The notes under the pieces are model-generated. The model had not been told where the DNA came from, made no database searches, and saw only the letters and a program-made list of their open reading frames with translations. Both the position numbers and the translations under genes were made by a program. Below, in pieces: positions 5,049 to 38,545 of a DNA stretch of 41,263 bases; the first letter of the stretch is position 1, and each line of letters begins with the position of its first letter. The stretch comes from Clostridia bacterium BRH_c25 (GTDB taxonomy: Bacteria; Bacillota_A; Clostridia; Lutisporales; Lutisporaceae): assembly GCA_001515955.1 (NCBI GenBank), contig LOES01000150.1, positions 1 through 41,263 of the forward strand, given 5' to 3'.

Positions 5049-5133
5049 GTTGCGCGTTACGCGTTTCGAGTTGCGCGATTCAAGAAATTTCTTCGAAGCC
5101 TTGACTGGATTCCCGAATCTCGCATCTCGTATC
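5049..5133. repeat. Heptamer arrays, GTTNCGC family then inverted GATRCGA family
   Basis: 5049-5083 is a run of 7-bp units: GTTGCGC, GTTACGC, GTTTCGA, GTTGCGC, then a decayed GATTCAA. A spacer with TTCTTCGAAG follows, then 5113-5133 has three units of the other family in reverse (CCGAATC, TCGCATC, TCGTATC). The block lies between the rex terminator and the next gene. Confidence 0.85.
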
Positions 5134-5217
5134 TTATTCATTTTCCTGTTTCAAATCCTTAGAAATATGATAGAATATATCGTATATAGTTATATTACAG
5201 TCATTGGGGGTATAGCC

Positions 5218-6024
5218 GTGAAGGTTTACGCACTTATTGGGCAAAGCGGCACCGGGAAGAGCTACAAGGCTTTTATGGTTGCAAAAGACAGGGATATAGG
5301 ATATATAATTGATGATGGGCTTTTAATAGGCGGTACGAGAGTTTTGGCAGGTCAGTCGGCGAAGAGGGAAAACACTCGTATAGCATCGGTCAGAAGAGCA
5401 CTTTTTCATGATCCCGAGCATAGGGAGAAGGTCAAGAATGCATTGGAGGAGCTTAAGCCGGAAAAGCTTCTTGTTATAGGCACCTCCCTCAAAATGGTGC
5501 AGGAAATCAGTCAAGCCCTTGGATTTTCAGAATTTCATGAGATACTGCATATTGAAGATGTTTCGACAGAAAAGGAAATAGAGCTGGCCAGAAAATCACG
5601 CAGCGAGGATGGTAAGCATGTCATACCGGTGCCTACCTTTGAAGTCAAAAAGGATTTTTCCGGTTATTTTATAGATTCTCTTAAGATATTCAGTAAAAAG
5701 GATCGTTTTTCGGACATAGTTGAAAAGACCATTATAAGGCCGACCTTCAGCTACCTGGGGAAGTATGAGCTTTCGAAAGCTGCTCTTGTGCAGATTATAG
5801 GCATTTGTGTATCAAAGGTGGAGCGGATAAACAAGATTATGAGGGTCAGGATAGAGAACAGGCCTGATGGAGTAATTATTGACCTTGATTTATCAATTAA
5901 GCTGATTACAAGGATTGACCTTATGGTAGTAGATCTTCAGAAAAAGCTGGTGGAAGAAATAGAATACATGACGGGTCTGAATGTATTAAGCATAAATGTG
6001 ACAGTAAAGACTATAACGACGTGA
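5218..6024 (+). CDS. P-loop protein with C-terminal Asp23/Gls24-like domain
   Basis: The GTG at 5218 (268 residues) has GGGGGT just upstream. The longer frame back to 5050 only translates repeat DNA, so I reject it. Residues 8-15, GQSGTGKS, are a Walker A motif, followed by KAFMVAKDRDIGYIIDDGLL as in small nucleotide-binding proteins. From about residue 175 the sequence changes to a fold-like pattern seen in Asp23/Gls24 proteins, with YELSKAALVQIIGICVSKVERI, VRIENRPDGVIIDLDLSIK and a close MTGLNVLSINVTVKTI. Asp23-type proteins are linked to envelope stress. The fusion of the two parts suggests an ATP- or GTP-dependent envelope function, but the substrate is unknown. The gene stands alone between two repeat blocks. 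Confidence 0.7.
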   Translation: MKVYALIGQSGTGKSYKAFMVAKDRDIGYIIDDGLLIGGTRVLAGQSAKRENTRIASVRRALFHDPEHREKVKNALEELKPEKLLVIGTSLKMVQEISQALGFSEFHEILHIEDVSTEKEIELARKSRSEDGKHVIPVPTFEVKKDFSGYFIDSLKIFSKKDRFSDIVEKTIIRPTFSYLGKYELSKAALVQIIGICVSKVERINKIMRVRIENRPDGVIIDLDLSIKLITRIDLMVVDLQKKLVEEIEYMTGLNVLSINVTVKTITT

Positions 6025-6030
6025 TAAAGA

Positions 6031-6139
6031 TTGGGTATTCCTGTTGGGACGGTTGCGCGTTACGAGTTGCGGGTGTTCGGGACAGTGCTTCGAAGCCCAG
6101 TTTTTGTATGCGCGAAACACGAAACGCGAAACCCGTAAC
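6031..6139. repeat. Composite repeat: core plus inverted GTTNCGN heptamer arrays
   Basis: The core GGGTATTCCTGTTGGG starts 7 bp after the preceding stop codon. Three units follow at 6052-6072 (GTTGCGC, GTTACGA, GTTGCGG), then a spacer with GCTTCGAAGCCC, then four inverted units at 6112-6139 (GCGAAAC, ACGAAAC, GCGAAAC, CCGTAAC). The arms could form an imperfect hairpin. Confidence 0.85.
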
Positions 6140-6170
6140 CAAATGAAATTTTATTCGAAGGAGTATCTAT

Positions 6171-36600: not shown

Positions 36601-36609
36601 ACTATAGTT

Positions 36610-36656
36610 ATCCCAATTCAGAGAATAGCTGCATGCAAGCATTCCGGAATTGGGAT
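36610..36656 (+). terminator. Hairpin after the small ORF
   Basis: Arms ATCCCAATTC and GAATTGGGAT are perfectly paired around a 27-nt loop that contains TGCATGCA. The T run is weak, so termination is likely but not certain. Confidence 0.6.
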
Positions 36657-36832
36657 TTACTGTTTCATACGGAAAATTATGCTAAGAAATTTGTTTGAAT
36701 ATGTGAAATATAATTGATTATATGAAATTTCTGTAATATTATAAAACTAGTAATATATTTGGTTTACCGTAATTCGAAAAGTGACGGCAGGCCATAGGCA
36801 AGAACAAATCTAAGGATGAGGAAGTGTATGAA

Positions 36833-38434
36833 ATGACTGGGTTATTGGCATTATATCTTTTTATCAGCACCATTCTTGGCATTGCACTATTTTTATTACG
36901 TGGCAGCGAATTGATAGCTGCTATACTGATAGTACTGATTATAGCATCAGGATATATTTTCGTTATATTTTTGAGCAGTATTTCCAAGAAGGTAAAACTT
37001 GATGTTGAGGCAATACATAAAGGTCAGTTGAATCTTAATGTCAAAAGAACGGGGCTTAAGATTTTTGACGGTATATCATCAGCAATAAATGATTTTCTGT
37101 ATAAGGTCAGGACGCTCATTTCTTCTTTCGGAGATGTGTCAAAGAAGGTAATACAGGATGCACACGAGGTTGAGAAGCAGGCAGAGACGATCAAGTATGC
37201 CGCAGGAGAAATAGCCTCCACAATACAGAATATCGCTGAATCAGCAAGCAATCAGGCGGTATATACCCAAAATATGATGAGTATGATACAGAGCTTTGCA
37301 AGAGATGCCAAGGATATCAACGGAAATGCAGAGACAAGCTTTATTGTAGCAAAAGAAACAAAAGGAACCATAGAGGACAGCTTCAGCAAATTTACAGATA
37401 TAAGCTTCAAAATGCAAGAGTCTAAAGGGTATAACAAAAAGGTACTTGATGCTTTGGACAGCCTGGATGATAAAATAAGGGCAATAGATACAATAACAGA
37501 AGCAGTAGAAGGAATTGCCACCCAGACCCAGCTCCTGGCATTGAATGCCGCCATTGAAGCAGCCAGAGCCGGTGATGCCGGCAGGGGCTTTGCGGTGGTT
37601 GCGGGAGAAGTAGGCAAGCTGGCTGATGATTCTTCTCAGTCTGCAAAGGAAATAAAGCAGCTGGTCGATGGTATAACAGGGCAGATAAGTGAGCTGTCAC
37701 TTCATATAAAGGACGAAGCGGATGCTATTGATAAAAATCTGGAATATGCAGCAGAGGTATTGAATAAATCCGATGTTATAAATGATACTTTGAATGAGAA
37801 CATGAAAGCAGCTGAAAAGATAACATTACTTACCAAAGAGCAGATCAAAAGCATTGACAGTATTGAAAGGGAAATAGAAAAGGTAAACGATACAACACAG
37901 CAAAATGCGGCTGTATCGGAGGAGATAGGCGCATCAACACAAGAACAGCTTGCTACAATCGAATCGGTACACGGACATATTATGACGCTCCTGAAAAGGC
38001 TGGAAGAGTCTGACGCAATCGTAGGCAATTTCATGAAGGGCTTTGAGGTTACTGAAGTCATAAAGGGGAAAATCACCAAGACGCAGGCGTTGATTAACGA
38101 AATGATAAAGAATGAAGATGTTTTTTCAATGGACAATAAGACAGCAGAAAAGTATCTCAAAGAGCAGCAGAAAAAATTGGAATGCATAGAGCTTATAGCA
38201 ATTGTCAGCGACAAAGGTTATCTTAAGACAGCAACTGTTGAAGTGCCTGAAGACTTTAGGGACTGCAGCTCAAAGCCGTATTTTACAAAGGCCATGCAGG
38301 GGGAAGCTTTTGTATCGGAGGAATATATCTCGGTGGTTTCTAATAATTACAATATTTCCGTATCATTTCCTGTCTTATCCAATGGAGTATTAAAGGGAGT
38401 TGTAATGGCAGACATAAATATAAACGAGAACTGA
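36833..38434 (+). CDS. Methyl-accepting chemotaxis protein with C-terminal Cache-like domain
   Basis: ATG 36833 (533 residues) lies 9-11 bp after GAGGAA; GTG 36824 is too close to the site. Two adjacent membrane segments (residues 1-50, LLALYLFISTILGIALFLL and AAILIVLIIASGYIFVIFL) leave no external sensor. A signalling domain follows, with the hairpin tip QTQLLALNAAIEAARAGDAGRGFAVVAGEVGKLADDS. After it, residues 425-530 (CIELIAIVSDKGYLKTATVEV, SSKPYFTKAMQGEAFVSEEYIS, ISVSFPVLSNGVLKGVVMADI) look like half of a dCache sensor domain. That placement puts the sensor inside the cell, which is unusual. It would signal to CheA/CheW; no che genes are adjacent. Confidence 0.9.
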   Translation: MTGLLALYLFISTILGIALFLLRGSELIAAILIVLIIASGYIFVIFLSSISKKVKLDVEAIHKGQLNLNVKRTGLKIFDGISSAINDFLYKVRTLISSFGDVSKKVIQDAHEVEKQAETIKYAAGEIASTIQNIAESASNQAVYTQNMMSMIQSFARDAKDINGNAETSFIVAKETKGTIEDSFSKFTDISFKMQESKGYNKKVLDALDSLDDKIRAIDTITEAVEGIATQTQLLALNAAIEAARAGDAGRGFAVVAGEVGKLADDSSQSAKEIKQLVDGITGQISELSLHIKDEADAIDKNLEYAAEVLNKSDVINDTLNENMKAAEKITLLTKEQIKSIDSIEREIEKVNDTTQQNAAVSEEIGASTQEQLATIESVHGHIMTLLKRLEESDAIVGNFMKGFEVTEVIKGKITKTQALINEMIKNEDVFSMDNKTAEKYLKEQQKKLECIELIAIVSDKGYLKTATVEVPEDFRDCSSKPYFTKAMQGEAFVSEEYISVVSNNYNISVSFPVLSNGVLKGVVMADININEN

Positions 38435-38442
38435 ATATAAAA

Positions 38443-38545
38443 GATACGAGATGCGAGATACGAGATACGAGAAGAGCTCGGGTATTCCTTATGGGTATAG
38501 GTACGGGTAACAGGTCACACAGGTCTGTTTCACGGAATTCCTATG
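38443..38545. repeat. Heptamer array (GATRCGA) with core and ACGGGTAAC tail
   Basis: Four units at 38443-38470 (GATACGA, GATGCGA, GATACGA, GATACGA), GAAGAGCTC, the core GGGTATTCCTTATGGG, then GGTACGGGTAAC and a CACAGG/CACGG-rich end. It starts 8 bp after the chemoreceptor stop codon and matches 14003-14062 in reverse. Confidence 0.9.

Follow-up and report, generated by a model that had tools for sequence, protein, structure and literature searches.

The window, by which we mean the whole stretch of 41,263 nucleotides that was analysed, is contig LOES01000150.1 of Clostridia bacterium BRH_c25. Its intergenic DNA carries short tandem arrays with a 7-bp unit, and these arrays are the subject of this work. 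An earlier note on the same DNA had named 16 array positions, sorted them into three families by word (GATRCGA, CTAGNNN and GTTNCGN) and proposed one common origin for all of them. What it missed is that most window arrays are inverted pairs around a core. The resulting element has a regular plan: about 3-5 units of 7 bp, a core with CTTCGAAG at its centre, about 35 bp long or longer if it has an insert, and the same units inverted. These elements have a common core, arms that covary between dialects, words specific to a genome, words that have changed in place in both arms, and dispersed near-identical copies. We believe most of the arrays are probably the arms of a dispersed, non-autonomous family of hairpin elements (~85-170 bp) that works like REPINs (repetitive extragenic palindromic, REP, doublets forming hairpins) or MITEs (miniature inverted-repeat transposable elements).

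The arrays and elements of the window are as follows. The E values are for R1, a covariance model trained on 20 elements from genome G113, a relative.

5049..5133, minus strand: hairpin element with mixed words; arm of four GTTNCGN units, 36-bp core with CTTCGAAG, arm of three GATNCGA units; R1 match at 5056-5133, E 8e-17 on the minus strand and 1.8e-13 on the plus strand.
6052..6139, plus strand: hairpin element; GTTNCGN arms of three and four units, 39-bp core with CTTCGAAG; R1 match at 6052-6132, E 1.2e-16.
7060..7089, plus strand: single GATNCGA array beginning 2 bp past the stop of an OGG-like gene, then a GGGTATTCC module; weak R1 match at 7068-7143, E 0.016.
7894..7997, plus strand: hairpin element beginning 2 bp past a DUF554 gene; GATNCGA arms of four and four units, core with CTTCGAAG, then a T-run; R1 match at 7909-7989, E 1.8e-14.
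13848..13960, plus strand: hairpin element at the stop codon of a MogA-like gene; AGTCNCT (CTAG-type) arms, core with CTTCGAAG; R1 matches the core only, at 13876-13912, E 0.095.
14040..14063, minus strand: single GATACGA array, on the reverse strand, beside a reversed GGGTATTCC-type module; weak R1 match at 13996-14062, E 0.11.
24358..24492, minus strand: hairpin element; CTAG-type arms, long core with CTTCGGAG and another hairpin; R1 reaches just E 0.25.
31529..31700, plus strand: hairpin element upstream of the leucyl-tRNA synthetase (LeuRS) T-box; GATNCGA arms, long core (CTCCGAAGGCATACTA); R1 match at 31537-31692, E 4.9e-7.
36075..36135, minus strand: one-armed element; GATRCGA array at 36110-36135, core-like stretch with CTTCAAAG, no second arm seen; partial R1 match at 36075-36112, E 0.46.
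38442..38472, plus strand: single GATRCGA array 8 bp past a methyl-accepting chemotaxis protein (MCP) gene, then a GGGTATTCC module.

The six hairpin elements in this list are the facing array pairs found when both strands are read. Their core has CTTCGAAG in four cases and a near form in two (CTTCGGAG, CTCCGAAG). Four window elements match R1 with E between 8e-17 and 5e-7, and the other window places have E 0.016 to 0.46. Five elements (7060, 7894, 13848, 31529 and 38442) start at a stop codon or no more than 8 bases from one.

The period itself is not in doubt. Checked unit by unit, every one of the 16 named positions holds 7-bp units that fit its stated family. Runs of exact consensus units are four units long at 7895, 38443, 13853, 5049 and 6112, three units long at 14042, 36112, 13937 and 6052, and two units long at 5120 (named as 5113), 7061, 7983 (named as 7969), 31537 (named as 31530), 24364 and 24462; at 31672 there is one exact unit, in an array that is periodic with a variable unit position 4. 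Tandem Repeats Finder places period-7 arrays at the named places too, merging or splitting some neighbours. At a comparison window of 18 bases, period 7 makes up 8 of the 10 arrays in the window (the other two have periods 11 and 14, the latter twice 7), and no array of this period appeared when the window was dinucleotide-shuffled 50 times. With a 16-base comparison window it makes up 10 of 12 arrays, nine of them intergenic; when the 6069 intergenic bases were dinucleotide-shuffled 200 times, a single period-7 array appeared in all. Intergenic here means outside a greedy set of open reading frames (ORFs) of at least 100 codons; 5049-5180 was assigned intergenic by hand, because the ORF called there begins inside the array. 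These shuffle comparisons rule out a chance origin. By unit length, in excess over shuffles and over other lengths, the arrays are heptameric simple-sequence repeats, but arrays standing alone without a fixed partner or core are not what is found. The earlier note had likened them to independent tandem arrays of the kind of the cyanobacterial STRRs (short tandemly repeated repetitive sequences), which are heptameric repeats. That likeness is not supported, since the organised unit is the inverted array pair with its common core.

Relatives came from a LeuRS search (391 genomes of the class containing a Clostridia-type metagenome-assembled genome), and the family comprises 22 genomes. The best sampled of these, G113, has the window genes in the same order, inverted. 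Over 640,081 bp of it sampled blind to arrays, period 7 is the commonest with 15 arrays (12 intergenic); period 6 has 7 arrays, and periods 8 and 14 have 5 each. In 260,000 bp of G159, counted without stretches that were over half N, there is one period-7 array at the setting used for G113 and none at a stricter one, so the array load differs between genomes. The dominance of unit length 7 claimed earlier therefore holds in the window and in G113, as it does in 117 loci of other phyla described below; neither a lack of excess nor an even spread of unit lengths, either of which the earlier note would have taken as refuting it, was seen in the window or in relatives where checked.

In 1,032,398 bp of G113 there are 35 inverted pairs; 20 + 14 of the stretches were picked for pattern hits, and their densities are not genome averages, while 7 of the 35 come from stretches not so picked. 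Further places bring the set to 42 elements. Their size range is narrow, with 4+4 units in 17 of the 42 and a core of 34-38 bp in 24. The unit is GxTNCGN, and the letter at position 2 matches between the arms of 38 elements out of 42; a permutation on 38 rows, 35 of them agreeing, gave 0/20000. The arm-agreement and permutation analyses excluded elements whose core was shorter than 25 bp, and one row of the permutation set (L353, from G159) was removed from the set of 42. One type of arm has a purine at position 4 and mostly A at position 7 (102/132). The other has T at position 4 and mostly non-A at position 7 (125/142). An arm of each kind is present in 40 of the 42 elements, where the arm labels A and B, like the orientation test given below, are set by position 4; only the position 7 and arm-permutation tests do not depend on this labelling. 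Perfect palindromes maintained solely by fold-back correction are rejected, since positions 4 and 7 differ between the arms in those 40. The letter also depends on the unit's place within the arm in three of the four G113 arm classes (p 0.001, 0.002 and 0.011; the fourth has p 0.93). Free slippage at each site would explain such place-specific letters less well than constraint or the copying of a defined element.

The arms are matched to each other well beyond what shuffling gives. In the 20 elements used to train R1, 96.6% of 380 cells are paired against 88.7 when shuffled. In A3, an alignment of 42 elements built without structure, 95.1% of 670 cells are paired against 76.6, compensated cells number 115 against 41.5, and the covariation score is 0.484 against 0.165; each of these values was reached by 0/500 shuffles. 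A3 omits L418 (a near-duplicate of L417), L429, L430 and L353. All four Watson-Crick pairs, U-A, G-C, A-U and C-G, are observed at unit position 2. Folding supports a hairpin for several forms, with RNA z scores of -10.0 for the GAT type (7894-7997), -5.6 and -6.1 for GGT, -4.8 and -8.1 for the CTAG type (13848-13960 and 24358-24492), -3.7 for G314 and -9.3 for G244. Six DNA folds agree with the RNA folds.

The core is shared across genomes and the word is not. Counting both strands and scoring at most 150 candidates per genome, R1 at E<=1e-4 matches 12 of the 22 family genomes: G113 89 times, G244 27, G314 16, G296 11, G332 6, G368 4, G281 3, G350, G159, G263 and G058 2 each, and G024 once. 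Twenty R1 places that were fetched have the same core and other arm words, with GAYRCCA in G244, GTCNCTR and GCTNCTA in G314, and GGCNCGA and GGYNCCA in G296. The core thus lasts while the arm word varies by genome among GATNCGA, GGTNCGA, GTTNCGN, GAYRCCA, GTCNCTR and GCTNCTA. Whole-genome counts of three-unit GxTNCGN runs are, for x = A, G and T, 3 (at one place), 88 and 132 in G113 and 19, 2 and 0 in G332; the reversed pattern gave one hit in 66 genome searches.

Two orthologous places let us follow a change of word. The element upstream of the LeuRS T-box has a core (CTCCGAAGGCATACTA or a close form) common to several relatives, with arms that differ. They are GATNCGA with one GGT unit in the window, GGTNCGA in 8/8 units in G113, and in G244 a period-8 GGTTACGN array facing GGTNCGG; G281 has one arm of AGTCNCT, G224 lacks the arms and keeps a remnant of the core, and G332 has no element there. 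At 6052-6139 core and word are the same in the window and in G113, which has one extra unit, and other words occupy the site in G224, G350, G244 and G332. Period-8 GGTTACGN arrays, a 7-bp word with an extra G, also occur in G113 (L280 16806-16839, L156 7333-7359), the G244 case being the left arm of L124. The common core and the word change at an orthologous element rule out three unrelated repeat families, and on this point the earlier note was right that the arrays look like one thing. The arm word resembles the end of an Illumina adapter. Adapter contamination is unlikely, given that the arrays carry different words in register and occupy orthologous places with changed words.

There is also evidence of movement. 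In G244, 155 bp are 98.7% identical between two copies that lie on different contigs and have unrelated flanks, which, on sequence, looks like recent spread. Of six places compared in that genome, three more match the two copies over ~116-163 bp at 85-92%, and the sixth (L421) has no such match in the orientation tested. The G244 form has extra subterminal hairpins and ends like terminal inverted repeats. None of six relatives compared has the 7894 element at its site, where two of them retain a short remnant resembling an array.

How do these elements compare with known mobile families? The available text of PMC3116915 describes REPINs as inverted REP doublets, and the likeness extends to the inverted repeats with a spacer, the predicted hairpin in single-stranded DNA or mRNA, and the extragenic, dispersed, miniature nature with conserved ends and a less conserved spacer. 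Dispersed extragenic copies are found here as well (2 of 34 G113 elements with context lie inside a called ORF), as are inverted repeat copies with a spacer able to form a hairpin, which folding backs for the GAT, GGT, CTAG and G244 forms and not for most GTT forms. The arms here, however, are tandem 7-bp units of changeable sequence, whereas REPIN arms are 16-mer-type REPs in the same text. Association with a gene for a REP-associated tyrosine transposase (RAYT), a defining feature of REPINs, was not seen: none of 30 Y1_Tnp loci, taken from 51 matches in the 22 genomes, carries the element, so on these loci we do not class it as a REPIN. As in MITEs, there are terminal inverted repeats (the inverted arms); a target-site duplication is not found in the 42 G113 elements.

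How such an element might work can be sketched. The form that matters would be a single-strand fold-back, in nascent DNA or mRNA, with arm complementarity maintained by selection or by fold-back copying. Slippage in the 7-bp register would lengthen, shorten and homogenise each arm, and because it homogenises arms a new word could take over an element. Between co-directional genes the element might perhaps also act as an mRNA stem-loop.

Several observations weigh against this interpretation, and we set them out together. Four window arrays (7060, 14040, 36110 and 38442) have no opposite arm, and R1 finds no match in 10 of the 22 family genomes. Apart from a single pair separated by 1.8 kb, G113 has no recent copies. 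Its 42 elements show no target duplication: flank matches of at least 5 bp (5-9 bp) number 0/42, and 2-bp matches number 3 against 2.33 when permuted, where the true element ends are only approximate; a duplicated target is rejected. An autonomous partner was not found, R1 matching in 0 of 30 fetched Y1-transposase loci (of 51) in a transposase search that covered Y1 only. In the G113 training elements positions 4 and 7 pair in just 12.5% of 120 cells, so the arms are not simply held complementary. A3 pairs with two-sided changes number 9 against 8.9 in shuffles, and pair types 30 against 27.0, neither a meaningful excess. Watson-Crick pairing in its 22 non-training elements is 97, 91 and 97% at positions 1, 2 and 5, 72 and 68% at positions 3 and 6, and 29 and 56% at positions 4 and 7, where 17 of the 22 were selected by a model that rewards pairing; the others are L298, from a pattern search, and L267 and three window elements known before the model. 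Finally, most GTT-type elements have a fold no stronger than that of shuffled sequence (RNA z -0.25, -0.96, +0.79 and -2.05), and the mixed GTT/GAT element at 5049..5133 has z -1.16.

The rival that survives best, though we think it unlikely, is that these are ordinary heptameric simple-sequence repeats: replication slippage would favour 7-bp units, an idea tied to the polymerase footprint in the available text of PMC4692102 and PMC4679880, and inverted neighbours would arise by fold-back mutation with no defined element. Heptamers outnumber every other long repeat unit in many published genomes according to the same text, period 7 leads with many words in the 117 loci of other phyla, the register differs among units of one array, and single arrays do occur in the window. 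Against this stand the core common to many elements and their narrow size range, the unit-index-specific letters in three of four arm classes, the recovery by R1 across genomes and the dispersed 155-bp copies. Positions 4 and 7 differ alike between the arms in 40 of 42 elements, which neither free slippage nor fold-back copying would lead one to expect. The 7-bp step of our hairpin family may still come from slippage, as is put forward for heptameric repeats in what is available of the same two papers.

We give little credence to a vertically inherited mRNA element, an operon stem-loop for processing, stability or translation that is selected and not mobile now. It accounts for the covariation, for the many elements a few bases from both neighbouring genes, and for the orthologous elements at 6052 and 31529. 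The purine-type arm lies upstream in 21 of 28 co-directional G113 cases (p 0.0125), a modest hint of an effect at the level of RNA. The turnover of sites, with the 7894 element absent there in six relatives, and the near-identical dispersed copies in G244 speak against it, as does the weak folding of GTT elements. The gene context is that of the background as well: co-directional genes flank 26 of 34 G113 elements and 140 of 185 background gaps, which shows no preference for a gene order. A T-run follows 2 of 29 co-directional G113 elements, which rejects intrinsic termination as a general function; the window element at 7894-7997 does have one.

A comparably small chance goes to a more radical idea. 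The word would be rewritten whole, in both arms and at many loci, by fold-back-primed or dedicated copying in 7-base steps, and the same process would make word-sharing 7-bp arrays such as AGATRCG in many phyla; an enzyme with a seven-base footprint would act on the hairpin as its substrate.

The AGATRCG word, three or more times in tandem, is found in at least 117 stretches of at least 10 phyla. Away from the AGATRCG hits, period 7 makes up 83 of the 148 arrays of periods 4-15 in those loci, every other period having at most 11, in genomes that were chosen for carrying one heptamer array. The carriers (L001-L117) also hold arrays of period 7 with many other words, as though, among genomes preselected in this way, the tendency to this period belonged to the genome and not to the word. 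In 13 of the 117 loci there is an inverted partner (at least 12/14 letters within 200 bp), against 0/585 single-base shuffles. R1 matches 10 of the 100 loci scored at E<1e-4, and in the three alignments examined beyond the family the match rests on the arms and not on the CTTCGAAG core.

The last rival, tandem double-stranded binding sites of 7 bp for a protein, inverted round a palindrome, is very improbable: G1 and C5 are nearly invariant with position 4 free, CTTCGAAG is palindromic and the genome-specific words look as if they track a protein, but one genome can have two or more words (G113 has x=G and x=T, G314 has GTCNCTR and GCTNCTA), each matched across its own arms, and a protein that accepts several words would not explain why the arms match.

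As a kind of sequence, heptameric repeats are known; what is new is their organisation as core-bearing inverted arms. GGGNATC in Xanthomonas and Nostoc (PMC4692102) and TAACTGA in Beggiatoaceae (PMC4679880) are examples in the available text of these papers, alike in the 7-bp unit, the intergenic position, the few copies and the differences of register. For Xanthomonas even inverted, convergent neighbours are reported (PMC4692102, available text), as here. A common core, covarying arms and in-place word change, features of our elements, are not described in the available text of PMC4692102 and PMC4679880. The BrickBuilt MITE of Porphyromonas gingivalis (PMC4596501, available text) is also a miniature intergenic element with a tandem array, but it has a 23-bp unit and one internal array with a leader and tail, and here two inverted arrays form the arms. 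The GTAG/CGTC-tagged REPs (PMC3733652, available text) likewise have sub-families with alternative complementary stem residues, an extragenic position and a proposed action as RNA; they differ in being single 20-40 bp palindromes with an end tag. The GTAGGGGCGAACAGTGTTCGCCC palindrome resembles the GTAG-tagged REPs of that text, but here it occurs only as an insert in some cores. A literature search that largely lacked subscription papers found no description of a two-armed heptamer hairpin element, and no clostridial counterpart; the earlier note likewise knew of none. Counts of heptamer repeats exist for many bacterial genomes, and neither the number seven nor their scattered spread had an accepted explanation. 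Here they gain an anatomy: arms of dispersed hairpins, matched to each other, with a lasting core and a replaceable word. We believe this anatomy is a concrete handle on why many bacteria have repeats of exactly seven bases, and that it makes the question testable.

Some smaller observations remain. Palindromes like GTAGGGGCGAACAGTGTTCGCCC are inserted in element cores at window 31558-31583 and in L384, L385, L386 and L396 of G113. The arrays at 7060, 14040 and 38442 adjoin another module, GGGTATTCCTT..GGGT..AGGTACGGGTAACA or its reverse. A module of the form GGGTATTCCTT..GGGT..AGGTACGGGTAACACGG.. recurs beside single heptamer arrays at window ~7090-7130, 13990-14036 (reverse) and 38476-38520, and also in L301, L316, L317, L355 and L358, with ACACGGAT-type repeats coming next in several relatives. 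Between a Rex-like gene and the first array there is a perfect 18-bp inverted repeat with a 16-nt loop (window 4996-5047). Y1 transposase genes give 51 matches in 16 of the 22 family genomes, and the window has one of its own, an IS200-like element at 1162-2118 with its gene at 1249-2094 and perfect 28-bp inverted ends (1162-1189 and 2091-2118). Mobilisation of the hairpin family by this type of transposase is rejected, as the same 30 loci lack the element and the 28-bp ends are unrelated to it; an end similar to these 28-bp ends occurs in G113 (L278). Rfam at the gathering score leaves the arrays unmatched and has three matches in the window, all riboswitch or T-box leaders of an ordinary kind: a molybdenum cofactor (Moco) leader at 14142-14261, a cyclic di-AMP (c-di-AMP) leader at 25970-26112 and the T-box at 31754-32001.

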